IMG/VR virus record: IMGVR_UViG_3300028607_003725
Location: 1-64,000 of that record
Strand: one strand, 5' to 3'
Length of the DNA stretch: 64,000 bases
Origin: a virus
The notes under the pieces were generated by a model that saw only the letters and a list, made by a program, of their open reading frames with translations, made no database searches and was not told where the DNA came from. Below, in pieces: positions 5,214 to 32,900 of the stretch. Each line of letters begins with the position of its first letter. The stretch's first letter is position 1. Both the position numbers and the translations under genes were made by a program.

Positions 5214-5214
5214 A

Positions 5215-12397: not shown

Positions 12398-12430
12398 ACA
12401 TCACCCGTATAGTGTGTTTCTTCCTGGTAC

Positions 12431-12465
12431 AAAAAAGGGTATGATTTTAATTCATACCCTTTTTT
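12431..12465 (+). terminator. Rho-independent terminator between the two chaperone-like genes
   Basis: AAAAAAGGGTATGA (12431-12444) pairs perfectly with TCATACCCTTTTTT (12452-12465), 7-nt loop, ending in a run of T. It lies between paralogous small genes, so read-through would set their ratio. Confidence 0.88.
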
Positions 12466-12483
12466 ATTAGACATACCTTTTAT

Positions 12484-13092
12484 ATGGATATATCAAAGAA
12501 AATAGCCGAATGGAAAGCCAAATATGGTTCAGTCTTTATAGTTTCTATTGAAGATAAGTCCATTTATTATAGAACATTAACTGCTTGGGAAATCCAAAGT
12601 ATAATTGATCTCACTAAACAAAACAAAGCTTCCTTAGATATAGAAGAGTCTACGTGTTTATTTGGAGTATTAGCTCCTAGTCCTTTACCTACCTTTAGTA
12701 AACCTGGCAGTATTTCCAGTTTAAGCGAAGAGATTTGGAATAAATCAACTCTGTCAGCTGATATTATGGCAAAAACTATAAAGGATAGTAGAGAGTGGAG
12801 TGAAAGTAGCGTAGACCAAAATTATAATTTAATTATAGCAAGTGTTATGTGTAAGCTAATGCCCTCGTTAGACTTAGCTCATCTCTTGGAGTTACCTACC
12901 ACTAAACTTGTAAGGCTGGGAGCAATAGTAGAAAAGATAACAGGAGAACAATTCTTAGAAGGAGAATTACTTAGTAAACAGGGAACTAAGAAAAGCATGG
13001 GTTCTGATAGAGTTACTAATGAAATGGCAGATAAAACAGCAAATCTGTTGGCGAATGCTCTTAAACAGCAAAGAACAAAGGCTAAGATATAA
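12484..13092 (+). CDS. Tail assembly chaperone-like protein 2
   Basis: 202 aa. The ATG at 12484 lies 19 nt after a terminator and has no visible ribosome-binding site. The frame is closed by a stop at 12448-12450, so no longer form is possible. The first ~40 residues resemble those of chaperone-like protein 1 (KAKYG-x-V...YxxR...E). The rest is helical and ends in a basic helix (ADKTANLLANALKQQRTKAK). Its stop overlaps the start of the 2622-aa gene (TAATG), implying translational coupling with the putative tape-measure protein, the partner expected for such a chaperone. Confidence 0.5.
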   Translation: MDISKKIAEWKAKYGSVFIVSIEDKSIYYRTLTAWEIQSIIDLTKQNKASLDIEESTCLFGVLAPSPLPTFSKPGSISSLSEEIWNKSTLSADIMAKTIKDSREWSESSVDQNYNLIIASVMCKLMPSLDLAHLLELPTTKLVRLGAIVEKITGEQFLEGELLSKQGTKKSMGSDRVTNEMADKTANLLANALKQQRTKAKI

Positions 13093-16000: not shown

Positions 16001-19000
16001 TGGACTAGGATTACGATGGGGTATATCTACGGTTGATAAACTTGTAAGTTCGTTTGGTTTAGGATGGGATAAAGGAAGATTTAGTACACCAGGAGAAGTG
16101 ATTGGATTACAAGGTAGAAGACTTGCCACATTTAGTGCAGCTTTATTGGGGTATAGTGCCGTAGACAGCGTTACAGATGCCTCTGGCGCATTTGATGGGA
16201 CATTTTTAGATGAAGGACTAACAGTTGGATTAGCCGATCAGGCAGTACGTTTACGAATGCTAGCTGCTAAAACTTATGACGTACTTGGAGTAGATAATGC
16301 GGCTAGGTATATGGAAGGTCTTATGCCTGGTTCTATGAATGTGTTACCAGGGCTTGCTATTGGCGGCCTGGCCGGAGGCATGGTGGGCTCCGGGATTCCA
16401 GGAGCTATTGTTGGAGCCATGGTTAATGCCTATTTAGGGCCTCAATTAAAAGAAGGTCCTTTAAGTTTTTTATCTATAGCGCCCCCACTTGCTCCATTTG
16501 TTTCAGATTTAACAAAAAGCTATGATGAAGTTCAAGATATATATGAAGGAAAAGAATTACTTGCTAGAAGAAAAGGAGCTGGATGGACATTAGGACAAAC
16601 TCCTATAGAAGGTGGCCGCATAGAAGGATGGGAGCTTCATTGGTACCCAAAGCTAAAATCCCAATATAAAGCAACTCCAGTTCTTTATGGCTCTAAGGTA
16701 GAACAATTCTTAGCAAAAGATGTACCCTTATTAGATTTTTCTATAATGGATATAATCGATCCTCAATATTTAACATACAAGCATTATGAAAATAGACCAT
16801 ACTTAATACCGGATACCCCTTTTACAGAAGTTCCAATTATTGGACCAGTACTGGGTGCTACTCTAGGTAGGGCTTATAATTTAGTGCATCCTTTAGGTCA
16901 GGTGGATCCAATGCATGTGCAAGAGGCTGCATCGGCCTTTATGAAAGGAAACAGTTATGATTGGAAAGGTGGTGCACAGGACACGTTTGGTCCTCAATAC
17001 CGAGGACTAGGGCCTGCAGGTGTTGGTTTAGCGGACAGGCAACCAGGACAACCTAATATAGGTAATATAGTTCTTTCTCCTTATGATATTAAACCATTGT
17101 TGGCAGAATCAGTATATAAAGGATGGATAGAGTGGATGGGGTTACCTGGATTTATAACATCAGCAGTAGCCTGGGGAGGGGATGAACCTTTTACTAATGT
17201 TCCTATTGCCCCTGCTGCTACTGATATGGATTCTTTTGCTAGATCTTATTGGGATTCTAATGCTGGAGATATGGCGTTAACTAATGAATTGTTTAGAAGA
17301 TTTGTTCCTAGACCTAGAACTAGTTATGAAACTGTAGATCTTATACATAATGCTATGCCTGGTTGGATACCTGAACATTTACGGACTGGAGATCCCTATT
17401 GTTTACTACCGGATACTTTAGTAGAAACTACTAATGGTTTAACTAGGTCTGAAGATATTACAGATGGTATGCTTGTTAAAACTATGTATGGAAGATTTTA
17501 TCCAGTAAGTAATACTGTAAGTAGGCCTGTTGAGGAGGAAATATATTGTATAACTTTGCCTGGATTAAAAGATTTTGAACTAAAAGTAACAGGGGAGCAT
17601 CCTTTTTATATAAAGCAAGGCGATGAGTATAAGTGGGTTTTAGCTAAAAATCTTACAACAGAGCATAGAGTAACTTATCCTTTGTTACAAATACAATTAA
17701 ATAATATAATAGACACTAATATTGAAATAGATGTTGAAGCTAAAATGGCTAAGCTCCTAGGTTTATTAGCTAGATGGACTAAATGGGGAAGTACCTTAGA
17801 GTATAGAGATGAAATCCCCGATAACATAACTAAAGAAATTGATAGTCTTGTAAAGCTATTGTCAATAGATTTAGAATTAATTAAGACAATAGTTTATGAA
17901 CATCAGAGTGATGGAATGGCTGTTCCTTTAGTAACTTCAGATTTAGCTATAGTTTTAAATTATCTAGAACCGTTTAGAGTAAAATCTAGTACTAATGAAA
18001 TAAAATATAGATTTCATTCTCAAAAAGCTGCTTATAATACGTGGACTGGTCTGTTACAAAATAAAATATTTTCGTTTATTAATAATGATACTTTGACTAT
18101 ACGGAATCAATTTGCTGCAGAGATTGCATATTTATTGGATATAGATATTAAGGTTACTGAATTTGAAAAGCCCTATTGTTCATTTAGCTTAGTTGATAGT
18201 AAAGTAGGCCCATTAGCAATCTTGTCTATAGAGAATATACGTAAAGAATATTATGAAGGCAATGTACACACTATAGAAGTATCAGATGATGTTACCTATT
18301 GTCTTCCGGGAGCTATTGTTCATAATAGTAAAATTACCCATGGAGAATTATATTTACCAGGGGAAGGATATGAAGCAGCTTTTAATCCAGATCTAACATT
18401 CCCTGTAGGAATGTCCCGACTCGGACGTTCGGCTTATGACCAAGCACTGGGCATGATAGGACTGTCTAATATCGCAGAAGACCAAGAGGAGATTTTAGAA
18501 AAGGGTACGGCTATTCACAAAATGGTACAGAATCAGCTAATGATGATGGGCGCTACTACTAGAATTGAAGCGTTAGTTACAGATCCTAGCGCTAATCTCA
18601 GATCTTATGTGGATGTAATGTTAAAAGATCCTAGAGGTAACGAAATGCCTCTTGAAATTAAGAGTATATCTGCCAAAGGCTTTGAAAGATTAGATAGACC
18701 AAAATATTCGCATAAAATTCAGTTAAATTCTTATCTAGCAGTTATGGGAGTTAACAGGGGTAAATTTTTATATGTATCTCGAGAAGATCCAACAAAAACA
18801 AAGCAATTTAGTTTACAATTTGATCCTGATATGTGGGAACAAACATTAGGTAAGTTACGTGAAGCCAGATATCTTGCTCAAGAGTTCTTATCTCAAGGTT
18901 ACGGTAGGGCTGCTGAAGGATACTCATATCTGGATAGAGCTAGAGTTTTATTAAACTCAGCTCCTTATTCAAAAGAGTACCGTGAAACATTCTCATTGCT

Positions 19001-20960
19001 TGAAGAACAAAAAGTTAGTGGACATTTGTCAGAACAAGAATCAGCACAACTGAGTAATTTAGAAGGTTATCACAAGGCAATGATGAGAAAGTATGAGATG
19101 TATCCTAGAAGGTTTACATTAGATAAACTTTTAGATCCGGATGCGGAGTATCAAAATCTATCCTCCAATGAATATATAGAACCAGCAGATACTTATTCAT
19201 TAGCTGAAAGAATAGCTGGTGCTTCATGGGAGTATGCTACCCATCTTAGATCTCCTATACATTCAAAATTATTTGGAAGATACTCTCCAGAGGAACAGTA
19301 TGATAGATTTGTAATGTATGGTGTTCCTTTTCAATCATGGGCAAGACCTTATGATACTTTTTTGAAACCCTATGCTAGGGGACTAAGGTCCGTTACTGAT
19401 CCATTGCAAGGAGCTATGTCTTTTGCAACGGGAGGATTAATATTTGGAGGAGGCCCTGGGGCCTTAGCTGGAGCAGCAATAGGTGCTGCTTATGGGTCGA
19501 TGCACGGAATGTATAGAGCAATTACTGGTGACACGTATCGCCCACAGAACTTTAAAGATAAGGTAGAGATGCAAGAGTACTTTGATACAATTGAGTATAT
19601 GAAAGCTGAGCAAATGTATATGGCTACAGGAAATCCAGATTATAGACGACAAATGGTAGGGACAATGAGAGGTTGGATTGAAACAAGTGGTGGTCAGTTT
19701 ATGACAGTACCAAATAGTGGAGGTATACAGGGCCATTATGGATATGATCCTGGAAGTTTGTTTGGAACCTCATCAGGACCAGCAGCCAGAGCTGCAAGGT
19801 TAATGAATAATCCATATGCCCAAGGAATTGGGACTGATCAAGGGTTCGGATCACCGTGGAAGGGATTGGCTAATGTTTATCGTCGATTATTTAAAAGTGA
19901 AAAAACAATAAAAATATTTAGAGGAGTTGATAAGTGGCATAGAGGACAAATGGTACAACAGGGTAACTTTGTCGGAGGAGGAAAATATACTCAAAGTAGT
20001 CGTGCCCCTGCATCTCCGATGTATATACCTAAATCTGAAACAGCACTATATACTTCCGGTAGTGCTAAAGATGCAATGTCTTACGGAAGACGAGGCAGAC
20101 GACCTGGAGCTCCTGAACCAACGTTGCTTGAATTTGCTGTTCCAGAAACATATGTTAGCAAAGCTGCAGTACAAATTAAAGGTCGTGATTTTAGTCATTA
20201 TGTTTTTGACGAGGGCATACCTAAACGTTTTTTAAGGAGAGTCTATTCCCCAAAAACAAGCCCCCAGAGTAGAGCCTTAAAAAAAACACAGAATCCAGCA
20301 GCTAAGAGTATAGGTGGAGACAAAGGTTTTGGATCTCCGTGGCAGGGAACAGATGACCAAGAAGCTCTTAACTATGATGCAAATATTAATGTATTCAGCG
20401 GCTTCTCTGCTTTAGCTGCTTGGGATAGACCTTTTTGGACAGCATTCTTAGAGACTCCTGAAGATAAAAGAGATAGAATATTAGATCAGGTAGATACACG
20501 AATGGGTGATATGCTAAAAATTGCATGGGGCAGAGGTGAAGAAGTTGCAATGCCTTCAATGGATGTGTTTTTTAGTAATTATAAAAAACCGTCAGCATTA
20601 GAACCAATAATGGGACCTGATACTGATATATCTGATTATATTACCGTTACTGCCAACTCAAGCGGACTAGATGCTCATGATTTTGGTTTTGGATGGAGAG
20701 ATCAATTAAGACGAATTCAAGATTCTGCTAATGCGATTTTACCGATTAATATTCATGGAAAAGACACTCCTGCCTTTGAAGCATCGGCAGTGTCACAGGG
20801 GGACATAAGTACCGCTTTAACAAAAGTACTAACAAGGATGGGATATGAAGGAGCTAGAATACAAGTAAACTCTATGATGTCCGAAAGAGATGATACCATT
20901 CTTAAACTTAATATAAGACGAGATTCAAGTATAGATATTATAAAGGCGTTATATGGCTAG
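13092..20960 (+). CDS. Giant virion protein in tape-measure position, with intein, RecB-like nuclease and possible ADP-ribosyltransferase domains
   Basis: 2622 aa (2313 after intein removal). Visible parts in order: a hydrophobic helix at 34-46; long helical stretches; a glycine-zipper hydrophobic segment at ~1084-1115; an intein at 1437-1745; a PD-(D/E)XK nuclease signature (GTAIH 1805-1809, D1841, E1855-I-K1857, Q1877, Y1881); a second glycine zipper at ~2113-2140 (FGGGPGALAGAAIGAAYG); a possible ADP-ribosyltransferase-like domain at ~2275-2385; and a C-terminal domain of unknown kind. Position after tail chaperones and before baseplate genes is that of the tape measure, and glycine zippers fit membrane insertion on ejection. 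The nuclease, and perhaps a transferase, would enter the host with the DNA. The family of the whole protein is not recognised, and the 2945-aa neighbour could instead be the length ruler. The 3' end overlaps the next gene by 8 nt. Confidence 0.75.
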   Translation: MATDDYIDDLVNPEEQGESTIAKGIGQAATTLGMFMGIHMAAMFIVTKGKMRAFSALQKSTIPRIRAAATRAATTTHSLTDFIATVGQGKGTVSRLAQSVYASSTSKTAETLRAGWKDISAYEKIGKFRELSRANKTTIVERSVGKYLREAAVFMPSFYIAEHNIGILHDGPEKEAKPAWYNLPGHAIGFAKFVPHMLAIDLGFRGVLHGAKIAASPLRGMLDPLEHSIANSPIADAAVDAYKWAERGAYREKQIAGMKIGDIIDHMGVAKDAFVKSLKSPTRTKMWRRDKEVFSGYERTTNSLYKVYTHHRQHIKVLRSQLYTKKLERYDKRIQKAGLTTEESFRHNFSDFVKFMDEPGISGRTDYQEALYKSNRAASGNELLGKQYYNENAKTPFIARILGLKRAKASDYKAGEKTLGKIYDTASKDKWNEGTDTILGKRKKDFVSKLLSNNTFIQERSGQSVNLDYLDPRYWATKGLNSFPTILGYGVIDLFPFKVMTRRPGDRVMLASGQVPLTPSQQTDAFGRKLFQKESRAGELHVTYKNVYNFSSEFNDGSRGLIMRRAGDKHYSLWDFQGSQGANVADGWVQVGKNIKLALRSDSPKGQRVHYEGLVSATDKNTRMPGEFSSNPFMRFMQEKLSLLDNKGSFPSIFRNLQMVMPEGMQNFFNVSDAVRGSRSRKILEDLKKLSQHKVDDIVQSSHKQMQMLDIVNRTKALSERVRRRSFDSTLSDDYFFNDIIKFLDTNMPGDFLKGKKIRSVDDIFDLASHIRRNVGESNLNMSERELLRVDALLNEARLSKDVLRREVHPELPVEKLKRFIYDYSVNFSRTNNLGKHGIEERMLNKAIKAFENQRITKQQLTDLEVSIFSTDFREVIRDTDFSKGRLLEKIGKDDVSKVIDSIKKGLVNKFSGAADGRSVIDTALANTGMFETAYSKAIDTGIPDLIDTLQLTMDSNPWVAYPTGFKEVLGLGLRWGISTVDKLVSSFGLGWDKGRFSTPGEVIGLQGRRLATFSAALLGYSAVDSVTDASGAFDGTFLDEGLTVGLADQAVRLRMLAAKTYDVLGVDNAARYMEGLMPGSMNVLPGLAIGGLAGGMVGSGIPGAIVGAMVNAYLGPQLKEGPLSFLSIAPPLAPFVSDLTKSYDEVQDIYEGKELLARRKGAGWTLGQTPIEGGRIEGWELHWYPKLKSQYKATPVLYGSKVEQFLAKDVPLLDFSIMDIIDPQYLTYKHYENRPYLIPDTPFTEVPIIGPVLGATLGRAYNLVHPLGQVDPMHVQEAASAFMKGNSYDWKGGAQDTFGPQYRGLGPAGVGLADRQPGQPNIGNIVLSPYDIKPLLAESVYKGWIEWMGLPGFITSAVAWGGDEPFTNVPIAPAATDMDSFARSYWDSNAGDMALTNELFRRFVPRPRTSYETVDLIHNAMPGWIPEHLRTGDPYCLLPDTLVETTNGLTRSEDITDGMLVKTMYGRFYPVSNTVSRPVEEEIYCITLPGLKDFELKVTGEHPFYIKQGDEYKWVLAKNLTTEHRVTYPLLQIQLNNIIDTNIEIDVEAKMAKLLGLLARWTKWGSTLEYRDEIPDNITKEIDSLVKLLSIDLELIKTIVYEHQSDGMAVPLVTSDLAIVLNYLEPFRVKSSTNEIKYRFHSQKAAYNTWTGLLQNKIFSFINNDTLTIRNQFAAEIAYLLDIDIKVTEFEKPYCSFSLVDSKVGPLAILSIENIRKEYYEGNVHTIEVSDDVTYCLPGAIVHNSKITHGELYLPGEGYEAAFNPDLTFPVGMSRLGRSAYDQALGMIGLSNIAEDQEEILEKGTAIHKMVQNQLMMMGATTRIEALVTDPSANLRSYVDVMLKDPRGNEMPLEIKSISAKGFERLDRPKYSHKIQLNSYLAVMGVNRGKFLYVSREDPTKTKQFSLQFDPDMWEQTLGKLREARYLAQEFLSQGYGRAAEGYSYLDRARVLLNSAPYSKEYRETFSLLEEQKVSGHLSEQESAQLSNLEGYHKAMMRKYEMYPRRFTLDKLLDPDAEYQNLSSNEYIEPADTYSLAERIAGASWEYATHLRSPIHSKLFGRYSPEEQYDRFVMYGVPFQSWARPYDTFLKPYARGLRSVTDPLQGAMSFATGGLIFGGGPGALAGAAIGAAYGSMHGMYRAITGDTYRPQNFKDKVEMQEYFDTIEYMKAEQMYMATGNPDYRRQMVGTMRGWIETSGGQFMTVPNSGGIQGHYGYDPGSLFGTSSGPAARAARLMNNPYAQGIGTDQGFGSPWKGLANVYRRLFKSEKTIKIFRGVDKWHRGQMVQQGNFVGGGKYTQSSRAPASPMYIPKSETALYTSGSAKDAMSYGRRGRRPGAPEPTLLEFAVPETYVSKAAVQIKGRDFSHYVFDEGIPKRFLRRVYSPKTSPQSRALKKTQNPAAKSIGGDKGFGSPWQGTDDQEALNYDANINVFSGFSALAAWDRPFWTAFLETPEDKRDRILDQVDTRMGDMLKIAWGRGEEVAMPSMDVFFSNYKKPSALEPIMGPDTDISDYITVTANSSGLDAHDFGFGWRDQLRRIQDSANAILPINIHGKDTPAFEASAVSQGDISTALTKVLTRMGYEGARIQVNSMMSERDDTILKLNIRRDSSIDIIKALYG
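17400..18326 (+). mobile_element. In-frame intein (309 aa) with decayed endonuclease region
   Basis: Residues 1437-1745 of the 2622-aa protein. Block A starts with the nucleophile C1437 in CLLPDTLVETTNG. Block B has T1500-G-E-H1503 (TxxH). The C-terminal blocks give EGNVHTIEVSDDVTYCLPGA and then H1744-N1745, with Ser1746 as the +1 residue. All four splicing residues are present, so splicing is expected. Joining the exteins gives GDPY-SKITHGELYLPGEGY just upstream of the nuclease domain. Between the blocks, KLLGLLARWTKWGS at ~1554-1567 resembles a LAGLIDADG motif but lacks its acidic residue. Confidence 0.88.
18501..18734 (+). other. PD-(D/E)XK (RecB/Cas4-type) nuclease signature within the giant protein
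   Basis: Within residues 1804-1881 the protein shows KGTAIH (H1809), YVDVML (D1841), PLEIKSIS (E1855, K1857) and HKIQLNSYL (Q1877, Y1881), with an SRLGRSAYDQ segment upstream. Order and spacing match the GxxxH...D...ExK...QxxxY pattern of RecB-family nucleases, and every catalytic position is filled. It is expected to cut DNA with a divalent metal. Whether it acts during ejection, packaging or on host DNA is unknown. Confidence 0.75.
19827..19865 (+). repeat. Direct repeat copy 1 flanking the transferase-like domain
   Basis: Encodes IGTDQGFGSPWKG. The second copy at 20310-20348 encodes IGGDKGFGSPWQG (10 of 13 residues identical, DNA more diverged). The pair brackets about 150 residues containing the transferase-like domain. 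Confidence 0.75.
19914..20250 (+). other. Possible ADP-ribosyltransferase-like domain within the giant protein
   Basis: Residues ~2275-2386. KIFRGVDKWHRGQ supplies an arginine (R2277), ALYTSGSAKDAMSYG a T/S strand-helix (T2321), LLEFAVPETYV a core strand, and VFDEGIPKRFL a glutamate (E2374). The order R...T/S...E is that of ADP-ribosyltransferase folds seen in some phage virion proteins. Residue spacing is plausible but the match is by eye and could be an inactive relative. Confidence 0.35.
20310..20348 (+). repeat. Direct repeat copy 2 flanking the transferase-like domain
   Basis: Encodes IGGDKGFGSPWQG, partner of the copy at 19827-19865. Short duplicated borders suggest a domain inserted by recombination, or a repeated binding motif. 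Confidence 0.75.
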
Positions 20961-23900
20961 AATAAATGATATAGAACAAGAACCAATATTTTCTCCTACC
21001 TATAAAGATCCGGAGAGAAGGGCATTAAGCTTAGGTATTCTTTTATCTCTTCCTACATTATTAGGAATAGTACAAAGTAGAGCTAAATTAATAAAAGGTG
21101 GTGTCTTTCAGAGTATGGCAGGTTTTGGTTCAGGAGCGAAGGCCAAGAGTGTACTACTTAAACGGATTGAGGCACTAGCTAATACTCGGCAAGCCGCTCT
21201 TGGTGAAATTGGTTCCTCAATCTCAGAACAACTTAAGGCAAATACTGATTTAATAAATAATCTTATTAGTGATCATAGTGCTGCAGAATTACATTTTGGA
21301 ATTGCGGGTGGTCGTCCTTATAAAGTTACTGGACCGGGTAGCTTGTTACAACAGGAGCTATTCACAGGATCAGCCACCTGGGACACTGCGCAGCATAATC
21401 TATTAATAAAATCGAAGGACGTAGCTCATGCTAAGTATAAAACTGCGCTAAGTGATTGGTGGTTTGGTAATATGCAATTTACAGATAAAAGAGGAGCTTA
21501 TGGGCAGGTCCGGGACAGTATCCTCTCTTTTCAGGGAAACTATCTGAAGCATACTCCTCGTAAATTGGAGGAGTATCTTGTAAATGTTCACGATGTTGTG
21601 CATAGAATATTATTACCGAGATGGCAGAATGGGTATGCTCCAGGAACATCGTATGATATAAATTTAAAAGGCGCATTAATTGAAAAAGATATTCCTATAC
21701 ATAAAGATTTAGTACAGGCAGCTAATGACTTGGCTGAAGCCCGAAGAAAGCTTGCTGACTTTCATGGCAATTATCAATGGTCAGGAGAACAAGTACATAA
21801 AAGATTAATAGAACTTGCTGCACAAGAAACTAAATCCCAAATAGGTGAGGGTTCTGGTTTTGGACCTTGGAGTAAACCTTCGAGATTTTCTGCATTCGAT
21901 AAGGGCGCATTAAATCCTGAGTTTATGTCTATGTTAAAAAATGATGAGTCGTATCGTCTAAATTTTTATAAAAACTTAGAAGCTCTTTATAATAGAGTAA
22001 AAGGGAATACAATAAATCTTCCTCCTTGGGCAACAGGGGTTTCTAGTGAAAATCCATTTATTTTAAGTGATACGATGACTGCGGAATCTACTGACTTTAG
22101 AAATAAGTTATTCCCAGGTAGAGAAAATTATAGTTTTACAAATGCCTCGGTAACAGAATTAACAGAAAAATTAGAAAGCAGAAATACTGGTTTAACTAAA
22201 GAACAAATGAAACATGTTTTGAGTCCGGAGAGATGGGGAGCTTATCATGACTTTCATAAAAAATCATTCGAGAGCATTGATCCTGTTTTTGCTGAACAGG
22301 TCCATGGACAACGAGGAAAAGCCCAACATCTAATAGCAGTAAGAGATTCTTTTCAAGCAGAAGTTAATAAGATAAAACGGAATGTAGTTGACCTGCTCAG
22401 TATGGAAAGAACATCAGGGAATCCAGCATACACTGCCCATATAGAGGCTTTAGCAGAGGCAGCAGGTATGGAGAGAAATCAGTATATTACTTTTATAGAG
22501 GGGTTAAAAATAAAAGCTGAAATTGGAGCTGATCTTAGCGGAAGAATGCCCTTTAAACATGCTAAGATTATAATCATCAGACCAGGACATACACCCATTC
22601 CATTAAACATTCCATTATCAGAATATGGAGCTTTTTTACCAAAAGCAAATTCTAAAATAAACACTTCTCCTTTGTTTTTAGATGCATTTGTACAGCCTAC
22701 CATACAAAATCTTACATCTATAGATGTAGCTATGATGAAAAAAATGCAAGTTAATGTTTCACATTATTTCAGAGATCTAGTACAGTCAGGGTATCAAAGT
22801 TCTGAAAAGGTACAGGGTCTTCATAAAAGTTATTGGGGATCATTTACGTCACTAGTACATACTGAAGTTGCTGGAATTAATCAGAACTTTTTTAGACGAC
22901 AGAAAGTAGTTTCTTCAACTCTGGATATCCTAAGAGGTGCAGTAAAAGAAAGTGGAGTAGGATCAAGAAGATGGTACGCTAAGTTTACTGCAGGCTGGGA
23001 AGCATTACAAGAGATACAAAATATAAGTAAGAGACAATCCACAATTTTAGGTTTAGATTTTGAATTCAATGCTTCTAAAACCTTAGGCTTTGATGCAATT
23101 CAAGGACTAGTGGCAAAGGAAACTACTCGTCCTTATCAGGCTGCTTATCAAATAACTAGAGGGTCTAAAAAACAATTATTTAATCATTGGATTAGACCAG
23201 ATAACTGGGATAATATACGGAATAATGTAAAACGATTTATGATTCAACAAGAAGGTATGGGGGGAATGATTGAGTATTCTAAATTAGAGGCTATAATGCA
23301 AGGAGCACAGGATCCTCTTTCTAAAGGAGAGGCAGTTGTAGATTTTAGTATTGGATTTGATGAGCAGGAGAAAAATTGGAGATTTTTTACCGATGAACAA
23401 AAAATAGATAAATCTATATTTAAAAAAGGATCTATTCAATCTGTTAGAGTTCATACGGAAGCCGGTTCTTTTGTTGAAATAGCTAGAGAAATATTTAGAT
23501 CACCTGATGGAGGTATCAAGTTTTTAACTCATGGAGGAGAAGAGGCAGATCTTATCTTATGGAATAAAAGAATAACTGGTATATTAGAAGAAATTAAACG
23601 AGGAAGAGACTTTGGCATAAGTGAGGGTGAGATAGGGTTGCTAAAAAGATTACATAAGGAAACCTCATTAACTAGTTTGTTAGCAAGAGGAGCATCTTTT
23701 GATACCCACTCAATGGCAATGGTTGTTTTAGCAGAGGAGGCAGGCAGCACTAAGTTTGGATTAACTGATATTTTTCATAAGCTTCTTACCTTATCTGTAG
23801 ATACTAAATTAGTTACTAGAGATGACGTAAGTAATGCTTTGAAAGCAATTGGAGGAGAAATAAAAGAGGGAAAATTGACAAAAGCAGGTAAAGCTGCATT

Positions 23901-26900
23901 AAAGGAATTTCCATTAACCGTACGTAATTCAATAAAACAACATATTCAAGCAAGTCCTCATGTTGTAAAAGAGCTATTATCTATGGGATTAGCAGGGCAT
24001 CATAATCCGGCCTTTGATAATATGATTACAGATTTCAATTCTCTACTGTCAGTACAGCATTATCAAAGAACAAAAATTTACAATCCAGAACTGTTTACTC
24101 GATGGGTACAAGCATATGAGGTTGCTAAACGAATAACAACCGGAAGATCGTTATCTTCGTTCCAGGCTATAGACGTAGTCAGACAACATGAAATGTTTGA
24201 TCCTGATAGAATAAAAAGAGAGGGTGAATTTAAATTATCTTTATTTGGTGGAACTCCTGCATCAGCCGCACAAGCTCATGGCTATTTAACTGGACCAGAA
24301 ACCTATTTGCCTTTTGGAAGATTAGCTAATTTACAGAAGCAGACTCAACAAGTTATGAGTGGAAGATTACTTCCTACTTTAGATTATACGGCAAGTAAAG
24401 ATGTTATGATTGAAACAGCTAAACCTATTTTAGGCCATAGACTGTTAAGTACATCTCAACAATTTTATGCTGAGGAAGATGCAAGGCTGGGAGTGTCTGC
24501 TAATAGATTTGGACTACAAGTAGCGCCCTCAGACCGAGGTGCACCTGGTCTTACTACTAGACGTACTTTATCCGTACTCTATTTATTAGGAGATAATAGA
24601 ATTGTAGGAGAGGACTCTGGGCTTTGGGCTAGCAAAGAAGCTATGAAAAATGCTATTAATTTTCCTAGAAGCGCTTTTGAGGCAGTAAAGGTAGATATTC
24701 CAACAGGATTGCTTAGTAGTACAAATTTAGATAAAATGAATATGTCTCTTTATGATTTTATGCAGTCAATAGGTATTAGCGAAAGAGTTATAGAAATAAC
24801 AAAGCGTAAAATAGGAGAAGATATGTCGCTTAGGGCCTTTATAGAGGCCCATAGTCAGCAAGGTGGAGTTGCAAAAGAGCTATATAGTTCTGAAGAAGCT
24901 ATAATTAGGGAAGCTACTGAACATTTTAATAAAACAGGAAAGGACTACATAAGACCTGGAGATCATATAGCGATAGGAAAAGGTCCAGTAAATTTACAAG
25001 TAGAACAGACCGGTCAAAGATTAACTACTATTACTAGAAGTCCTATTAGTAATCCATTTAATTCAGATGCTCTTATAAAATCTATCACTTATGATACTGA
25101 AAAAAATCAATTTATATTTAATCTTCTAGGAATAAGTAGACCTAGTATTTCTAAGTGGACATTTCAATTAAAGACAGCAAAGCCAATGCTAGTTGGGGTT
25201 GCTAACAATACTTTAGTAGGAAAAGGAATTGATTTAATAGTTGCAATGAAAAAACCGGATGCTGCTCAGACGTTAAACATTCAAATACGTAGAGTATTAC
25301 AGCATATGTACAGAGAACGACTACCAATAGAGGTACAAGTAAAGAGAATGAAAGAAGTTCTGATGAAATCATTTAATTTGGATTCTGCAGAGCTAGATGC
25401 TATGTTTACTATTCGCAAAAGTCCTATTTTGGATGCTAGTCAACGAGAATTATATAAGAGTTCGTTTTTAGCTACTGTTGAATTGAAAGATCCAACTGTT
25501 GCAAAGTTAGATAGTACTAATATTTATCCTAAAGTAGCTGCTCTATTAAAAGAGCAAGGTTTAACTATTAGAAGTATGCAAAAGATTTTTGTTGAGCAAC
25601 ATGCCGATGTCTTACAAGAAATATTCACTGATCTTAAACTTCCTGAAATTAAATCAGAACTTAGTAGTTTATATAGAAAAGCTATAAATTTACATAAAGA
25701 AAGCTTAAATAAATGGATAAAATCTAATCAACATATGAATATTGCAGGTCACGAGGGGTTTCATAGATTTATAGCTGCATCAAAAATGAGAGAAATATTA
25801 GGGAAGGGCTTGGCTTTTCACGACATGGCACTACTACCAAACAGAAGTGCTATGTTAGATGTATTAAATAAAAATAAGCAGCTAGGGCAAAGGCAAATAC
25901 TTAAAGATGTTTTTACAAAAATAACAGAGCATGAAGTTGTAAATGAAATGTTCTTTGCTAATGCAGCATTTTTAGTTGTTGATGAAGGAGTTTTACTGGA
26001 AGATTTATCTGATGTATCTAAATATAAAGGTACACTTAAGAATTTTTACGATACCCCTACGCAGAAATCAGGAAGTTTTTCTTTATGGGAGATGTTAGTA
26101 CGGATGGAGGCAGTTAAGGGCTCTAAGTTTGCTAATAAGTATATGATTCCTGAAATGATATCCTCCATGGGTTGGTATAATACTAATATCAGTTCATCAT
26201 TAAGTGTTCATAGTAAGTTTCTAGATATGTTAAAGGAGGGGTACAATGCTCCTTCTACTATAACTAGTGATCAGATTTATACCCCAGGAATGGCGGCCTT
26301 AGGACACGATATATCTATTTATAGATCTTCTATGCTAGGTGTATCGGAATTAGATGAATTAGTTAAAGAAGGTCTTTTTATTAAAAAAGATATAGAAGTT
26401 TTATTAAGTGATTCTAAACTAATGCTTATTTTGAAGCAACAGTTAGGTGAGGCTTTTGTGGATAGTCATGAGTTTCAGACAAGAAGAGAATCATATATAT
26501 CAGCGTTACGAGATCGTATTCAACGAGGTACAGGAAAGGGTTTTCTTTCTGGGGAAAACTTAGGTAAGATGAATATATTTAAAACAGATAAAGGTGTCAA
26601 TTATATTAAATTTGGTCTTCCTGATATAATGGCTGCTATTGAAAAAAGTGAATCTATCAGCCCTGAATTAAAAACACGCTTAAGAAAAACAGATTTATTT
26701 AGAAATGAGAAAAGTGTATTCTTTTCAAAACTAAGAGTTGCTCTGGAAGGAGTAGAAAGTAATCAAATGGAACGCTCTATGTTAGCCAAAATAGATTGGC
26801 TTAATGTTGACAAAGGATTTCCTAATACTGCATTAGAAGATACATTAGCGAAACTAGAAGTTGCACTATCTGATCATGATAATCCTAAGAAACTTAGAGA

Positions 26901-29790
26901 TCTTTTAGTTAATTTAGGAGAGCTTAAGGCGAGCTCAGCTTCAAAGCTGAAGGACAAGAACCTATGGGAACTTGCTAATAACTATAAACAAAGAGTAGTT
27001 TCTGGCCGAGAAGGACGACTAGCAGAAGTAATGTTTCCTCATTTAAAACATGAGTTTCCATTACCAGTAGGAGATCAGTATCTAATTACAGATGAAAGTG
27101 CTGCAAAATTAAAAGTAGCTAGTGCTATAGAAAGTTATCAAACACAAATAGATAAAATTGTAAAAGATCTTGAGCAAGAAGGAAGATCTCTTAAATCCTA
27201 TGAAATTAATGATAGGCTTTCTGAAATACAATCTTCCCACGAAGCATTTATGAGGAAGTTAGCTACAGGCCATATTAGTGCATTGAAAGGATTATCAAGT
27301 GCATCCTGGAAAAGTCAAAGAGCTTATGCTCCAATTATGTATGCCAAAGCAGTGGATGTTGGTATTTTATTAGAGCAAGGACTAGGTGGACTATTAGCTG
27401 ACATCAAAGATAAAAACATAAAAGGAATGGATATAAACTTCTTTGATAAGAAGATTGCATCCCCTAGCAATCCTATAATGGAAGCTATTAGAAGTAATAA
27501 ATTTAGAACACTCATTAAAGAAGCTCTTCTTTATCAGGGTAGTGATCCAACAACCGGTGAAGCTATTCTCAGCCTGGTAGGGGAAGAAGAAGCTAGAAAT
27601 ATACAAAGATTGTCTTCTGAAATATTCAAACACTCTAAGGACAGCGTTACCTGGGGTGAATATTTAGGAAATATTTTAGGAATAGAACATAAACTAGGAC
27701 TGAGTAATAAACTTTTGAATAATTTATCATTATATAAGGAGATAGGTACAACAGGTTATAAGCATTACTTTGCTAAAGGTTTTGGTATAGGCGAAGGCAT
27801 TATGTCCCATAGTATGTTTGCATCCTTTCTTGAAAAAGGAAATCCAGGAGCTTTATCCATGGTACGGAAACCAGACTTGTTTAGAAGTGTACTAGCGGGT
27901 AAGTCTCCTATTAGAGAGATGTTTGCACGAGCTCCTTTATTTGAGAACTGGTTTGGTGCACGGTTACGTAATGTTTACTTAATGCCTGATAAAATTTTTG
28001 AGCAGATGCACCTTGATCCTAGAGATACTAAACGAATGGTGGCTGTGAGTGCACTGGATATCTTTCTACACGGTGGTGACTTTGATGGGGACTTGGCTAA
28101 TTTTATGATAAATAACTCTAGTATGTATCGTAGAGAGTATTTTGGAAAAGATGCAGCATGGACCGGAGAAGTTAATGATGTGCAAAGAGTTAAGCAATGG
28201 TTGAATTTTAGAGTGCAACAAGCCGGTAGGGGTGCTCTTACAATCCAGGGACAGGACTATATTGGAATAGAAGAAACAGCAGATGGAAGACTACTTGTTC
28301 GGCACGATTCTAAGGAAAAGTTTGATTTTACTAAAAAAATGGAATTTTTAACCGAACAGATGGATGATCCTATGAAAAACATGTCTCATGCTGAAAAAAA
28401 TAGAGTGTATATGGTACAACAAGTACTAACACCTGTCTTTGGACAAAAAGCAAAAATGTTTCATCATTCTTTTCTTCCTACAGGTGGGATTGATCCTGCA
28501 ATGAAAAACGAAGTAGTGCAACGTATACAGGAAACTATACGGAAACATTATAAAGATCCTAAAATTTTGCAGGATTTGTTAACTGAATTAGGACATTTAC
28601 AAGATATAAAACCGTTGTCTCATGCTGAGTTAAAACTACAAGCTTCAAGGTACTTGGATAGTATAACTAATGCATGGGAAAGACTCCAACGAGAATCAAC
28701 AATACCTTTATATGAACAAGTTATAACACAAGATGGAACTAAGCAAAACCCTAAAATTTCAACTACAGTAAGACCAGGTACTATGAAGAAATCACGATTT
28801 GCTATGTTCTTTGATTGGCACAATAAGGCCATGATCCACGGTGTCCCAATAGAGAAAGCGAAAGCAGGACAACTTAATGATTGGTATAATATGACTGTTC
28901 AGTTTTCAAAGTTAATGTCTGGAGACAATCTTAGAGATACTAAGAATATTCATAGGTATTTCTGGGACACAAGTCCATTTACAGAGCTTAATCTGAGCAC
29001 ATGGTTTGTTAATCCAGGAGCGGATCATGGTATTCCGGAACATAAAGTATTGGAGATACAAGGCTTAGCGTTTATGGAAACACAAGAGACGTTTGAAGAT
29101 ATAATGAGACTTAAGCAAGCGGAGCGAGCTGTGTCTAAATCTTCTCTTCTCGGAGGACTTAAGTCCGCAGCATACTGGACGCTTTCAAAAAATCCTAGAA
29201 ATGCAATATATGGAGCTCAGGTTGATCTATTAAGTGAGCAGAAAAATTGGATACACAGCGGACTGACTTCTTTGCTTGGAGTTGAACGAGCTGGTATGAT
29301 TACAGATGCAGAAAGTGCGGCGTTTTTTACTATGCGATCATTTGAAGAAAGAATGGCCGGAAATAGGGCCGGTACAGAATCAATGATTAATTGGTTAAAA
29401 CAGTATATGTCAGAAGGAAAAATAAATAAATGGGGAAAGAGAGCATCCGTAGGAGTTCTGGCAGCGATCTTATTTGATCCAAATGCAAATTCTTTATTGC
29501 TTCCTGATTTAGAAGTTAATGGGGAAAAATATGACATACCTTCATTTAGGGAGCTAAGTAAATCTTACAGGAATAGACTCATGAAGATCAGAAGTACCTC
29601 CCCTCCTGTAATAGATAAACTTCTTAGAACATTTGGTTTACCGAATAGTGTTGGTGCTCGAGCTGTGCACGGACCCCCTTTACCTCCTAGACCTAATAGG
29701 GTCTCGTACTCTTATAGAGAACGTAGAGATAAAATATTAGGTATTAAAGAATATGCCAGAAAAGTTAATGGTATAATGTTAGGACAATAA
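20953..29790 (+). CDS. Giant virion protein with RNA-polymerase-like double-psi barrels (putative virion-packaged RNA polymerase)
   Basis: 2945 aa, start ATG overlapping the previous gene by 8 nt, with AAAGGCG upstream. A hydrophobic segment lies at ~25-40. The key signal is FLHGGDFDGDLANFM with D2376, D2378 and D2380: the DxDGD metal-binding loop of the beta prime-type barrel in multisubunit, YonO-like and crAss-like phage RNA polymerases. About 50 residues upstream is FARAPLFENW (R2326-A-P2328), where these enzymes have a conserved R-x-P. A beta-type barrel is suggested at ~1200-1440: GDNRIVGEDSGLW (E1220-D-S), YIRPGDHIAIGKG (D1337, K1343) and TAKPML...LVGKGI (K1410, K1424). A weak DnaQ-like GLDFEFN occurs at 702-704. 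It would transcribe early genes after ejection. The barrel motif is clear; polymerase activity and packaging are inference. Confidence 0.65.
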   Translation: MARINDIEQEPIFSPTYKDPERRALSLGILLSLPTLLGIVQSRAKLIKGGVFQSMAGFGSGAKAKSVLLKRIEALANTRQAALGEIGSSISEQLKANTDLINNLISDHSAAELHFGIAGGRPYKVTGPGSLLQQELFTGSATWDTAQHNLLIKSKDVAHAKYKTALSDWWFGNMQFTDKRGAYGQVRDSILSFQGNYLKHTPRKLEEYLVNVHDVVHRILLPRWQNGYAPGTSYDINLKGALIEKDIPIHKDLVQAANDLAEARRKLADFHGNYQWSGEQVHKRLIELAAQETKSQIGEGSGFGPWSKPSRFSAFDKGALNPEFMSMLKNDESYRLNFYKNLEALYNRVKGNTINLPPWATGVSSENPFILSDTMTAESTDFRNKLFPGRENYSFTNASVTELTEKLESRNTGLTKEQMKHVLSPERWGAYHDFHKKSFESIDPVFAEQVHGQRGKAQHLIAVRDSFQAEVNKIKRNVVDLLSMERTSGNPAYTAHIEALAEAAGMERNQYITFIEGLKIKAEIGADLSGRMPFKHAKIIIIRPGHTPIPLNIPLSEYGAFLPKANSKINTSPLFLDAFVQPTIQNLTSIDVAMMKKMQVNVSHYFRDLVQSGYQSSEKVQGLHKSYWGSFTSLVHTEVAGINQNFFRRQKVVSSTLDILRGAVKESGVGSRRWYAKFTAGWEALQEIQNISKRQSTILGLDFEFNASKTLGFDAIQGLVAKETTRPYQAAYQITRGSKKQLFNHWIRPDNWDNIRNNVKRFMIQQEGMGGMIEYSKLEAIMQGAQDPLSKGEAVVDFSIGFDEQEKNWRFFTDEQKIDKSIFKKGSIQSVRVHTEAGSFVEIAREIFRSPDGGIKFLTHGGEEADLILWNKRITGILEEIKRGRDFGISEGEIGLLKRLHKETSLTSLLARGASFDTHSMAMVVLAEEAGSTKFGLTDIFHKLLTLSVDTKLVTRDDVSNALKAIGGEIKEGKLTKAGKAALKEFPLTVRNSIKQHIQASPHVVKELLSMGLAGHHNPAFDNMITDFNSLLSVQHYQRTKIYNPELFTRWVQAYEVAKRITTGRSLSSFQAIDVVRQHEMFDPDRIKREGEFKLSLFGGTPASAAQAHGYLTGPETYLPFGRLANLQKQTQQVMSGRLLPTLDYTASKDVMIETAKPILGHRLLSTSQQFYAEEDARLGVSANRFGLQVAPSDRGAPGLTTRRTLSVLYLLGDNRIVGEDSGLWASKEAMKNAINFPRSAFEAVKVDIPTGLLSSTNLDKMNMSLYDFMQSIGISERVIEITKRKIGEDMSLRAFIEAHSQQGGVAKELYSSEEAIIREATEHFNKTGKDYIRPGDHIAIGKGPVNLQVEQTGQRLTTITRSPISNPFNSDALIKSITYDTEKNQFIFNLLGISRPSISKWTFQLKTAKPMLVGVANNTLVGKGIDLIVAMKKPDAAQTLNIQIRRVLQHMYRERLPIEVQVKRMKEVLMKSFNLDSAELDAMFTIRKSPILDASQRELYKSSFLATVELKDPTVAKLDSTNIYPKVAALLKEQGLTIRSMQKIFVEQHADVLQEIFTDLKLPEIKSELSSLYRKAINLHKESLNKWIKSNQHMNIAGHEGFHRFIAASKMREILGKGLAFHDMALLPNRSAMLDVLNKNKQLGQRQILKDVFTKITEHEVVNEMFFANAAFLVVDEGVLLEDLSDVSKYKGTLKNFYDTPTQKSGSFSLWEMLVRMEAVKGSKFANKYMIPEMISSMGWYNTNISSSLSVHSKFLDMLKEGYNAPSTITSDQIYTPGMAALGHDISIYRSSMLGVSELDELVKEGLFIKKDIEVLLSDSKLMLILKQQLGEAFVDSHEFQTRRESYISALRDRIQRGTGKGFLSGENLGKMNIFKTDKGVNYIKFGLPDIMAAIEKSESISPELKTRLRKTDLFRNEKSVFFSKLRVALEGVESNQMERSMLAKIDWLNVDKGFPNTALEDTLAKLEVALSDHDNPKKLRDLLVNLGELKASSASKLKDKNLWELANNYKQRVVSGREGRLAEVMFPHLKHEFPLPVGDQYLITDESAAKLKVASAIESYQTQIDKIVKDLEQEGRSLKSYEINDRLSEIQSSHEAFMRKLATGHISALKGLSSASWKSQRAYAPIMYAKAVDVGILLEQGLGGLLADIKDKNIKGMDINFFDKKIASPSNPIMEAIRSNKFRTLIKEALLYQGSDPTTGEAILSLVGEEEARNIQRLSSEIFKHSKDSVTWGEYLGNILGIEHKLGLSNKLLNNLSLYKEIGTTGYKHYFAKGFGIGEGIMSHSMFASFLEKGNPGALSMVRKPDLFRSVLAGKSPIREMFARAPLFENWFGARLRNVYLMPDKIFEQMHLDPRDTKRMVAVSALDIFLHGGDFDGDLANFMINNSSMYRREYFGKDAAWTGEVNDVQRVKQWLNFRVQQAGRGALTIQGQDYIGIEETADGRLLVRHDSKEKFDFTKKMEFLTEQMDDPMKNMSHAEKNRVYMVQQVLTPVFGQKAKMFHHSFLPTGGIDPAMKNEVVQRIQETIRKHYKDPKILQDLLTELGHLQDIKPLSHAELKLQASRYLDSITNAWERLQRESTIPLYEQVITQDGTKQNPKISTTVRPGTMKKSRFAMFFDWHNKAMIHGVPIEKAKAGQLNDWYNMTVQFSKLMSGDNLRDTKNIHRYFWDTSPFTELNLSTWFVNPGADHGIPEHKVLEIQGLAFMETQETFEDIMRLKQAERAVSKSSLLGGLKSAAYWTLSKNPRNAIYGAQVDLLSEQKNWIHSGLTSLLGVERAGMITDAESAAFFTMRSFEERMAGNRAGTESMINWLKQYMSEGKINKWGKRASVGVLAAILFDPNANSLLLPDLEVNGEKYDIPSFRELSKSYRNRLMKIRSTSPPVIDKLLRTFGLPNSVGARAVHGPPLPPRPNRVSYSYRERRDKILGIKEYARKVNGIMLGQ
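28078..28092 (+). other. DFDGD catalytic-loop motif of an RNA-polymerase-like barrel
   Basis: Codes for D2376-F-D2378-G-D2380 of the 2945-aa protein in the context LHGGDFDGDLANFM. In known polymerases of this superfamily the three aspartates hold the catalytic magnesium. The context and the upstream RAP support a real barrel rather than chance. Confidence 0.7.
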
Positions 29791-29791: not shown

Positions 29792-29998
29792 ATGAGACGA
29801 GTAGTTGAAATAACTCTGCCTACTATTCCCTACGATAAGGATATTTCTGATATAGTAGGTTATCTCCGAATGGTGCTGTCTGAATTAACAAAAACATCTG
29901 TAGAAATCCAAATAAATGATATAGATTTTACAAACAAAATTGGTGTTTTTAATAATAATCGACGTCGTTCATTCCCTAATAGACAAAATAATATATAA
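29792..29998 (+). CDS. Small protein between giant virion genes, unknown function
   Basis: 68 aa, ATG with TTAGGA at good spacing, starting 1 base after the 2945-aa gene. The N-terminal 50 residues look like a compact beta-helix-beta unit (VEITLPTIPYDKDISDIVGY). The C-terminus is basic (NNNRRRSFPNRQNN). Its stop overlaps the next start (TAATG), so it is tightly coupled to the 5143-aa gene. It may be an assembly partner or adaptor; I do not recognise a family. Confidence 0.6.
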   Translation: MRRVVEITLPTIPYDKDISDIVGYLRMVLSELTKTSVEIQINDIDFTNKIGVFNNNRRRSFPNRQNNI

Positions 29999-32900
29999 TG
30001 GCTACTAATCCTACTGATGTTACATTTATAGACCCTGTAGACAAGTCTACTGTAAGACGTAAGTCGTCCGGTGAATTTAGTCAGATTGATCAACTAAAGG
30101 ATATTTTTGAGAAACTACGAAAGATTATTTATGAAATAGAAGCAGGGCCAGATGGTTTCAATGCCATGGGTCCTTCTTTAGATAGTACGTTTACTACTAC
30201 AAGTACAGCAACAACCGGCTCTATGACTATGCAAGTAGATAGAGGTTTAGGGGCCCAGCAGTTAAGAGTTAGCATTATTTCTACTATGATAGATTCTTTG
30301 CTAATTCCAAATAGTGTTCATTATACCCCTTTATTAGAATTTAAAGCCAAGATTCTTGATGAATCTTTGATTAAAAATAATGCAGATGTTACTTCATACT
30401 TTTCAGAAGAATGGCAGGTACTATTGCATTATATTTATTTATTAGAAACAATATACTCAGCACATGCGGATAGTCTTTATCTTGAATTAATTCCTCTTAA
30501 GAATGTAGGAGGACCTGGAGCTTATGGTTTAGGAAGTATGAACATGAGCGCCATGGAGGTTCTTAAGTCTAATATTCTGCCTCCTTCTATAGTTTCTATA
30601 AAGGTAACTTCTACTAAAGACTATCTCAAGGATGGAACATACCAGAATATTTTAAAAAGTAGACATATTGAACCTTTTTATATGACACCTGAGTTAGCAG
30701 ATAAACTGTTAACAGGTTATACTCTAGAAACTCCTCCCCATACCAGAGAAATGCCACCCATGTTTGCAGATCATCATATTAATGTATTTGATGGTACTGG
30801 TACAAAGAAGTATTACGCAGCACAGGGCGGTGTAGCGCATAATGCTATAATTTTTATGTTATCTTTTAGTAAAGCTCCTTCCAAGTGGCTGGAAAATGCT
30901 ATGGATAATGAGGATGAATTTATAACTCTAGGGGAAGATATTGGAGCAGGGCCGGCTGATTCGCATTTAGATGTAATCTTATGGAAAGATGCAGCTTCCA
31001 GAGATGACCCAGTAAATAGACAGGCCATTCGAAAGATAATAACGACAATATTAGCTAACGGAAGAAAAAATATGTCTACTTTAGATGTGGATGATTATGT
31101 AATGTCAGTTGAGTCCCGGAAAGAATTCGAATTGTTTATTGACACTTACTTCGTTGAGTTAACTTTGGAGGAGGCCACAACACCTCCCCCTAATGGTAAA
31201 TTTTTTATAAATGGAACATGGTTTACGGATACACCTTTGTACCTACATACTTGGGCAAACGCTAATACTCCAGGAAGTCCAAATTCTGGCAAATTTTGGA
31301 CAACTACAAATTATGATTATTTACGTAAGACTTCATTGTTTGATAAGTTTTTTATAGGAACTAAATCGTTACGTCAATTAGCTAATGACGCTGGTAATTA
31401 TCCTACAATAGGAGAACGCAGAGAAAAGTTTGTAGAATTTATAAACTCTTGGCACCTACTTGATAAACCAAACTCTATTAGAGCACTACAGAGCTTAATT
31501 GTGGATCATTTTAAAAACAATAGAAGTGCTTTTGCAGATTTAATAAGTTTTGGTGAGTTAAGAAATTTGGTTTTAGACTATTCGTTACATAATATCTCTC
31601 CGACTCATCCTTTGTACGTGCTTGACTCCTATTATAATATGCAGTCAATTACTTTAATAACCCCTACGGCTAAAATAGAAATAGCAACTCAAGATTCTAT
31701 AGGACAAGACTTATCCGGTCAAATACAATCTATAGAAAATTCAGAAGTAACTATTAATGTAACTGATAGCTTAACTGTTTCGAAAGTTCCAGGTTCAGAA
31801 AGCATTTCTCCTATAATAGACCAAAATGAAATAGAAACTTCAGACAAGGATATCTTACCATTTAAAGGTCTATTAGTGATGTCTACTATTTCAGCGGCTA
31901 ATAGTGGAATCGTGTATGAAGTATTAGACAGGTTTGGAACTATATGGAACCAAGGAGAAACTGCAATAACGTTTGCGATAAAAGATTCAAAAGGTAGTTT
32001 AGATCCTGGGAAATTGGGACTCAAAGGGCTGAAGTATGCCACTATCTTTCCGTTCTTTGATGAAAATGGTAATTCATTTCCTTATTCAAAAAATTATGCA
32101 ACTATGACTTGGATAGAAGAAACTAAAAGTCTTTACTTCATTACTCATGATGAATATGGGTTAACACAATTTGATTATCATGCAGTAGCTTCAATTACTT
32201 TAGAGGATTCTAGTTTTACAGATGAACAGGTACCACAATGGAGAGTTGTTTTTGAGGCATATGAAGCAACAGGTGCCCATGTTTTTGATTTATATGGAGG
32301 ACAGTTACTTGTATTTAATATTCCAAATATTCCGCAGGGGGCATTAATAACAGATAGAGTACAGCTCGGTATTACCTCTGTACCTAGTTATCCAGAAAAG
32401 GTTAAGAGTAAGTTATTTATTCAAGAGACCGAGCCTGTTACGCTAATGACTATTCCTGTTACTCAAAAGTTCGATGTTGAATACGATCTCTGGGGCGGCG
32501 ACGGCTTTAAGAACCCCGATGGTAGTACACCGGTTGTTATGGACCCATCATGGTTTGAGGATAAGGATACTGAAGAAGAAGCATTAGATGATGGTGGTGG
32601 AACTATTTCTCCATCAATAACAACAACTTTCAGTATTGGCAGTAAGGAAGTACCAATTGATGAATATTTAAGAGTACTAGAAAAAATTCAATTTAATAAG
32701 CCCTCAGTTGCAACAGACATTTCAGATATAATACAATATAATACGGAAACGGGTGAATCATTAACCAGATCTACTTCACTACCAGCTAAAGCTTTACAAA
32801 CGGATAGTCAATTTAAATACGTAAGACCTGCTAATCCAGAGGACACTGGAGTAATGTATATTGGTGATATACTTTTTCATATACCTCCAGTTAATCTGAG

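Follow-up and report, generated by a model that had tools for sequence, protein, structure and literature searches.

A candidate single-chain RNA polymerase at the tape-measure locus of a contractile-tailed phage lineage

In P23-45, a Thermus siphovirus, gp96 joins a single-chain virion RNA polymerase to the tape measure protein, and this polymerase transcribes the pre-early genes, that of the non-virion polymerase among them (PMC10770324). Virion RNA polymerases made of several subunits have also been described in jumbo phages (PMC7598289, in the part available). In Bacillus phage 0305phi8-36, orf146 is the assigned tape measure gene and gp147 the assigned hub (available part of PMC2147016), and gp99 is described as a separate RdRP/YonO-like polymerase (available parts of PMC2147016 and PMC7824862). 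Here we analyzed bases 1-64000 (the window) of the 77,674-base virus record IMGVR_UViG_3300028607_003725, which encode, at 20953..29790 on the plus strand, a giant protein of 2945 amino acids, P0001, a candidate single-chain virion RNA polymerase at the tape-measure locus. From sequence comparison, P0001 is probably a two-barrel RNA polymerase in one chain, built into a giant tail protein of contractile-tailed phages, and the chain also holds a domain resembling an exonuclease.

As the initial annotation had stated, this open frame carries a DxDGD metal-binding motif, D2376-F-D-G-D2380 (28078..28092, plus strand, within LHGGDFDGDLANFM), with the aspartates D2376, D2378 and D2380, and an R-x-P motif, R2326-A-P2328 (RAP 2326-2328; 27928..27936, plus strand), identified in the sequence and the alignment, exactly 50 residues ahead of D2376. 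A second R-x-P (RKP) lies 71 residues ahead of the same aspartate. Around the two motifs, we placed a candidate catalytic, beta-prime-type double-psi barrel at residues ~2265-2392 (27745..28128, plus strand; estimated borders), from the family alignment and PDB matches presented below. The gp96 of P23-45 is likewise a single giant chain in the tape-measure place, with DFDGD and an R-x-P 38 residues ahead. The virion RNA polymerases of crAss-like phages (phi14:2 and relatives), which are podoviruses, are also giant chains with DxDxD and R-x-P (39 residues ahead), but unlike P0001 they read DFDID or DFDVD.

To P0001, we added a homologue of 2994 amino acids from IMGVR_UViG_3300008735_000004, a more distant relative of the window. 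BLASTP aligned the two proteins at 24.6% identity over 1484 columns (E 1e-96), 23.2% over 1135 columns (E 6e-62) and 51% over 51 N-terminal residues, and the homologue has RQP and GGDYDGD at the equivalent places. Together with the giants of Bacillus phage vB_BauM_KLEB27-3 (gp034), Acinetobacter phage ME3 and Moorella phage MTATph1 and eight plasmid proteins, this made 13 same-locus giants. The plasmid proteins come from tblastn searches in which KLEB27-3 gp034 found eight records and the KLEB27-3 head protein nine, the union being nine Bacilli plasmids of 200-240 kb; eight of these nine were used and NZ_CP021670 was left out. The giant spans the record start in B. velezensis and P. urinalis, and the latter was read for 2082 residues only. 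Other searches were less productive: the direct search of P0001 against the phage collection gave no match, its matches in Pfam and PHROGs were all non-significant or under the cut-off (Phe_hydrox_dim, E 0.005; phrog_31275, E 0.14), and an IMG/VR scan with KLEB27-3 gp034 found nothing. Pattern-based scans, which may miss relatives, found as family members a near-identical record and the one distant homologue in IMG/VR, and none in genome contigs with two peptide patterns.

R-x-P and three spaced aspartates were present in 12 of the 13 same-locus giants, so that the conservation of the aspartates, on which the initial annotation had staked its reading, was indeed observed in homologues. DxDGD itself is found in 11 of the 13, with F, Y, S, A or H as the second residue. 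The distance from R-x-P to the motif is 38 residues in the eight plasmid proteins, 40 in KLEB27-3, 43 in ME3 and 50 in P0001 and its homologue; this range of 38-50 in 12 giants compares with 35-82 in 12 known polymerases, among them P23-45 (38) and six crAss-like phages (39). We then aligned ten of the 12 motif-bearing giants, leaving out near-duplicates from pSCDB14 and pBP1. Over 444 columns around the motif, five were invariant, namely R, P, D, D and D, and the G was kept in nine of the ten proteins. The alignment windows were picked around the motif, which favours aligned aspartates but neither the invariance of R and P nor the variability elsewhere. The combination was also specific within our material: R-x-P followed 25-80 residues later by DxDGD occurred in nine of 459 open reading frames (ORFs) of at least 80 amino acids from 12 stretches of this virus and its relatives, and all nine are the same-locus giant. 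In shuffled P0001, this pattern, chosen after P0001 had been seen, appeared in 12 of 5000 sequences. Overall, the RNA polymerase-like site is common to the relatives and is no single-contig curiosity.

These same comparisons bear on whether the giant could be a tape measure protein whose RNA polymerase-like barrel survives as a relic or as a non-catalytic structural module. The locus is that of the tape measure (PMC2147016, available part), ME3 has DHDQD in place of DxDGD, and the MTATph1 giant has no DxDxD. However, a relic would be expected to lose the R, the P and the three aspartates, and these are the sole invariant columns in ten strongly diverged proteins, while the crAss-like DFDID and DFDVD indicate that the fourth residue may vary; we therefore judge a relic unlikely. 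In MTATph1 (L026, 30494-37868), the giant gene is cut short, and behind it lie a transposase gene, an ATPase-like partner and a separate C-terminal piece, so this copy may be broken; we take the transposase and its partner to be an IS21-type pair.

The family alignment was then used as a profile (A5) against 177,635 distinct PDB sequences. We observed 44 matches at E<=10 (best E 1.3e-4), and by name every one of them is an RNA polymerase largest subunit or its equivalent: those of Pol I, II and V, bacterial beta-prime, gamma, archaeal Rpo1N/A', an RPB1 homologue, PHIKZ055 and phage beta-prime chains, including PDB 7s00/7s01, which are presumably of AR9 origin. R-x-P and DxDGD were in register in the three alignments displayed. 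Searched against nine whole phage genomes with known two-barrel polymerases, A5 matched four (E<=1), the three best matches, in LPJP1, phiR1-37 and BpSp (E 1e-8 to 4e-5), being annotated RpoC/beta-prime and the fourth being in JD-Fnp4 (E 0.04). On the phage side, the best matches (PHIKZ055, the phage beta-prime chains and RpoC of LPJP1, phiR1-37 and BpSp) thus lie with phiKZ/AR9-like jumbo phages, whose polymerase genes are not known to stand at the tape-measure locus. Unlike P0001, their polymerase is split over several polypeptides (PMC7824862, available part). Because DxDGD and R-x-P are kept in the same-locus giants and A5 retrieves only RNA polymerase largest subunits from the PDB, an RNA polymerase catalytic barrel is the best reading of this region. 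What the comparisons show directly is the sequence, the locus, the conserved catalytic residues and a family-profile similarity that is specific to RNA polymerase largest subunits.

DxDGD could instead be a loop that binds calcium, of the EF-hand or a repeat type, or have arisen by chance within a long structural protein: loops of the DxDxDG type are common, and DxDGD alone appeared in 119 of the 5000 P0001 shuffles. Such an origin is nevertheless highly improbable given an R-x-P 38-50 residues ahead in 12/12 motif-bearing giants and a family profile that matches RNA polymerases only. The EF-hand form was rejected, as a glycine follows the motif in 0/12.

Comparison with known barrels pointed to the same place, with lower scores. 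A profile of 12 known barrels was run against 697 sequences (297 real ORFs and 400 shuffles); KLEB27-3 gp034 ranked first (E 0.006) and the homologue of P0001 second (E 0.0097), both at the motif, and P0001 and ME3 also matched at the motif with scores at background level. Among 200 shuffles each of P0001, the homologue and ME3, those equalling the real protein numbered 1, 0 and 2 with the known-barrel profile and 1, 0 and 0 with a profile of known plus Bacilli-type barrels. In full-length HHalign comparisons, each of the three pairings had its best match at the motif; the P values were 0.0007 (known/Bacilli-type), 0.0019 (known/P0001 plus homologue) and 0.034 (P0001 plus homologue/Bacilli-type). 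A segment of KLEB27-3 gp034 also matched the Pfam family RNA_pol_Rpb1_2 (E 0.0014, below cut-off). A scan for the GGDYDGD pattern gave five other loci, and L033, used among the 12 known barrels, is a GGDYDGD frame (4992-5708) resembling the LPJP1, BpSp and AR9 beta-prime in IMGVR_UViG_3300025010_000028, a 187 kb metagenomic large phage.

Several results weigh against this assignment. A5 had no match in five of the nine genomes with known polymerases, including P23-45 and phi14:2, and none in the crAss-like records phi14:2, cr128_1 and jaberico, so that no sequence similarity to crAss-like polymerases was found with it. In three further genomes (LPJP1, phiR1-37 and BpSp), it finds just one of the beta-prime genes; since the gene matched differs from that matched by L033, it finds one paralogue and misses the other. 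RNA_pol_Rpb1_2 was matched by only one of the ten A5 members (E 0.0013, below cut-off). P0001 itself reached only 1.9 bits and rank 9 with the profile of known barrels, a weak match although it fell on the motif, and with a Bacilli-type-only profile 51 of 200 P0001 shuffles did as well, as did 0 of 200 for the homologue and 3 of 200 for ME3. The HHalign probabilities were low (26, 14 and 1.5% in the order given above), and BLASTP of P0001 against KLEB27-3 gp034 gave no significant match (best E 1.0). Searched against the PDB, residues 2251-2450 of P0001 alone gave nothing, and a two-sequence profile of P0001 and its homologue (A3) gave two Sm proteins only, neither significant, and no polymerase. 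When P0001 is compared with its homologue, identity does not stand out in the motif region (34%, equalled or exceeded in 276 of 2874 windows). The lack of DxDxD in MTATph1 counts on the same side. Taken together, the sequence-based case for RNA polymerase similarity is strong for the family, and P0001 belongs to it through its homologue, locus and motif rather than through its own score. In the PDB, similarity around the catalytic barrel was seen with the family profile and not with P0001, alone or with its homologue.

The double-psi barrel is a candidate fold here: AlphaFold, run on two sequences, gave a confidence (predicted local distance difference test, pLDDT) of only 31 for residues 1350-2549 and 41 for residues 2250-2440. 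Upstream, we marked a candidate second, beta-type, lysine-bearing barrel at residues ~1325-1445 (24925..25287, plus strand), with RPGDHIAIGKG at 1334-1344, GKG at 1423 and AMKKP at 1431. Of the upstream elements that had been listed, GEDS (at 1219) and RPGDHIAIGKG are both present, at 1157 and 1042 residues before DxDGD and not at some 900. The lysine stretch of P0001 aligns with IIKPGQILGV...K of the relatives, and one lysine is invariant in 9/9 sequences, in alignment windows chosen by hand; in two-barrel RNA polymerases, this barrel bears two conserved lysines. In the PDB, a second-barrel profile from seven relatives (A6) found nothing. The assignment of residues 1325-1445 to a second barrel is therefore suggestive only, and of the proposal that both barrels occur in one chain, the catalytic barrel stands as the best reading.

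The best conserved parts of P0001 are its two ends. Residues 1-60 (20953..21132, plus strand), which include its most hydrophobic segment (hydropathy maximum at residue 24), are 53% identical to the homologue vs 25% overall, and the most conserved C-terminal stretch, residues 2821-2880 (29413..29592, plus strand), hydrophobic and then LLPD...GE-YDIPS, is 55% identical. Bacilli-type relatives read to their end also have a hydrophobic segment near the C-terminus. Likewise, only the last 60 residues of 0305phi8-36 orf146 align to its relative (PMC2147016, available part).

Nearer the N-terminus, residues ~696-1040 (23038..24072, plus strand) may form a DEDDh 3'-5' exonuclease domain, with D702-x-E704, D866 and H1017-x4-D1022. 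We take D-x-E, D and H-x4-D to be the residue set of DEDDh exonucleases. All five residues are identical in the homologue, and the equivalent set is kept in 8/8 aligned Bacilli-type relatives. The MTATph1 counterpart matched Pfam RNase_T over the cut-off (E 2.7e-6), and the B. halotolerans giant matched RNase_H_2 (E 2.9e-4, 21.3 bits vs a cut-off of 22); no Pfam exonuclease match was obtained in this part of P0001, its homologue, KLEB27-3 gp034 or the Cytobacillus protein, and a simple pattern search of ME3 found no DEDDh-like residue set.

With these residues in the same chain of P0001, the homologue and Bacilli-type relatives, the giant could be another two-barrel nucleic-acid polymerase, for instance a DNA polymerase comparable to archaeal PolD, with the DEDDh-like domain as proofreader; PolD has the same two barrels (PMC10770324). 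We hold this to be very unlikely, as the 44/44 PDB matches of A5 are named RNA polymerases with no PolD among them and a simple pattern search of ME3 did not yield the exonuclease residues. The injected two-barrel polymerases known to us are, moreover, RNA polymerases. A bolder proposal is that one tape-measure-locus chain combines a DEDDh 3'-5' exonuclease with a two-barrel polymerase, as an RNA polymerase proofreading by hydrolysis through a DnaQ-type domain or as a phage two-barrel DNA polymerase, and is injected through the contractile tail across the lineage; in this full form, it is unlikely.

P0001 stands within a structural gene cluster. The window holds head, sheath and tube-position genes, a chaperone-position pair, three giants (2622, 2945 and 5143 amino acids), a baseplate wedge gene and more tail genes, and the record is 99.96% identical to IMGVR_UViG_3300023192_002962 over 67 kb. 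A contractile tail, as proposed in the initial annotation, is indicated by the tail sheath protein (5924..8587, plus strand; phrog_16991, E 5.7e-19); the baseplate wedge gene matched phrog_6 (E 4e-32). The major head protein (1401..2768, plus strand; phrog_3922, E 9.2e-11) served as lineage marker, with tblastn matches in MTATph1 (E 7e-37), KLEB27-3 (E 2e-35) and ME3 (E 2e-20). By head protein and gene order, the virus groups with the 0305phi8-36 / KLEB27-3 / ME3 / MTATph1 lineage, 0305phi8-36 being included via the ME3 annotation notes, which tie many ME3 genes to this phage. Named members of the lineage infect Bacilli, Moorella and Acinetobacter.

Two small genes (12029..13092, plus strand) occupy the tail-chaperone position, where ME3, B. 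velezensis pAD3 and P. rhizovicinus have genes labelled tail chaperonin. P0001 had been placed behind the tail chaperones; this holds by position only, and another giant intervenes, an open frame of 2622 amino acids (13092..20960, plus strand) that runs 8 bases into P0001. In this upstream giant, an intein-like Hint stretch at residues ~1431-1745 (E 9e-4 to Pfam Intein_splicing, under the cut-off) stands immediately ahead of a Cas4-like nuclease at residues 1797-1930 (phrog_1706, E 8e-17), which would place an intein in a putative injected nuclease. Downstream of P0001 lies a giant of 5143 amino acids in the baseplate-hub position (29998..45429, plus strand), whose counterparts are labelled baseplate hub (ME3_37) and putative baseplate protein (KLEB27-3 gp035); it has a long cysteine-rich stretch with CGVC/DCAG-type repeats, and its counterpart in IMGVR_UViG_3300008735_000004 is just 2976 amino acids long. 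Elsewhere in our material, L004 (2104-13674) is a frame of at least 3857 amino acids with collagen-like G-x-T repeats that runs off the record end.

In 8/8 plasmid records, the giant is preceded by another giant of 1957-2173 amino acids, with a 'tail chaperonin' label upstream in two of the eight, and in six of the eight it is followed by a large gene labelled nuclease, lysozyme family or glucosaminidase, the stretch or record ending there in the other two. By position, the gene sits between tail chaperones and hub/tip genes in the window, KLEB27-3 and ME3, which is the tape-measure place according to the assignment made for 0305phi8-36. As in the gp146/gp147 order of that phage, which belongs to the same lineage, P0001 precedes the hub-position gene; either P0001 or the upstream giant may be the tape measure here.

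P0001 differs from the P23-45 protein in several respects. The tail of P23-45 is non-contractile, its polymerase is N-terminal (D779 of 5002, vs a motif at 2376 of 2945), and the available part of PMC10770324 reports no exonuclease domain. Among the matches listed in open-licence PMC literature (titles and abstract starts, with the names KLEB27-3 and MTATph1 included), none describes an RNA polymerase within the tail giant of these phages, and P23-45 was the only tape-measure-fused RNA polymerase. The gp146 of 0305phi8-36, known here by description and not by sequence, is not termed a polymerase in the available parts of PMC2147016 and PMC7824862. The lineage may already be included in the survey of viral two-barrel polymerases in Supplementary Data 4 of PMC10770324. 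Since the tape-measure fusion of P23-45 was already published (PMC10770324), the initial claim of a new architecture holds only in part; what is new here is that the lineage has contractile tails, where in the chain the polymerase lies, and the exonuclease-like domain fused to it.

We also considered that P0001 could be a genuine phage RNA polymerase made during infection and absent from the virion, since non-virion two-barrel polymerases exist (PMC10770324). The virion location of P0001 is putative, the 'structural protein' annotation of KLEB27-3 gp034 being a label, and this counts among the points against a virion enzyme. The gene is, however, inside the tail gene cluster, the relative is labelled structural, and a separate polymerase candidate is encoded elsewhere in several relatives, so we give a non-virion role a very slight chance. 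This candidate is an RdRP-family (PF05183) frame of 1282-1424 amino acids, away from the giant, in six of 11 relatives' records, five over the cut-off (the records behind L052, L056, L058, L059 and L060) and one below it (L053). The other five records, those of MTATph1, KLEB27-3, ME3, B. halotolerans and P. rhizovicinus, gave no such frame, and one of 14 control genomes (B. subtilis) matched, below the cut-off. These frames are likely non-virion polymerases, and as in P23-45 a second, non-virion-type polymerase would then be encoded apart from the giant.

For a virion-borne P0001, we propose the following course, in which its fold, second barrel, virion location, injection, activity and promoter use are all inferred. 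The chain would be packed in the tail tube, as P0001 sits where the 0305phi8-36 tape measure was assigned; on contraction, it would exit the tube ahead of the DNA, fold at the inner membrane face and transcribe the first phage genes while DNA enters. Transport through the contractile tail, refolding and promoter choice are hypothetical parts of this course. Later polymerases would take over, in several relatives a second, RdRP-family protein. Such a hand-over from an injected first to a later second polymerase is plausible given the plan of P23-45, the RdRP-family frames in relatives and gp99 of 0305phi8-36.

If this reading is correct, tape-measure-borne transcription would extend from the Thermus siphovirus group to a contractile-tailed lineage that includes phage-plasmids of tractable Bacillus species, and loading an RNA polymerase into the tail might then be a general way for phages to achieve early transcription. 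One reason for the large size of the long tail protein of this lineage would also be at hand. The giants would then form a new branch among two-barrel polymerases, and the coupling of DNA entry and transcription would become testable in Bacillus.

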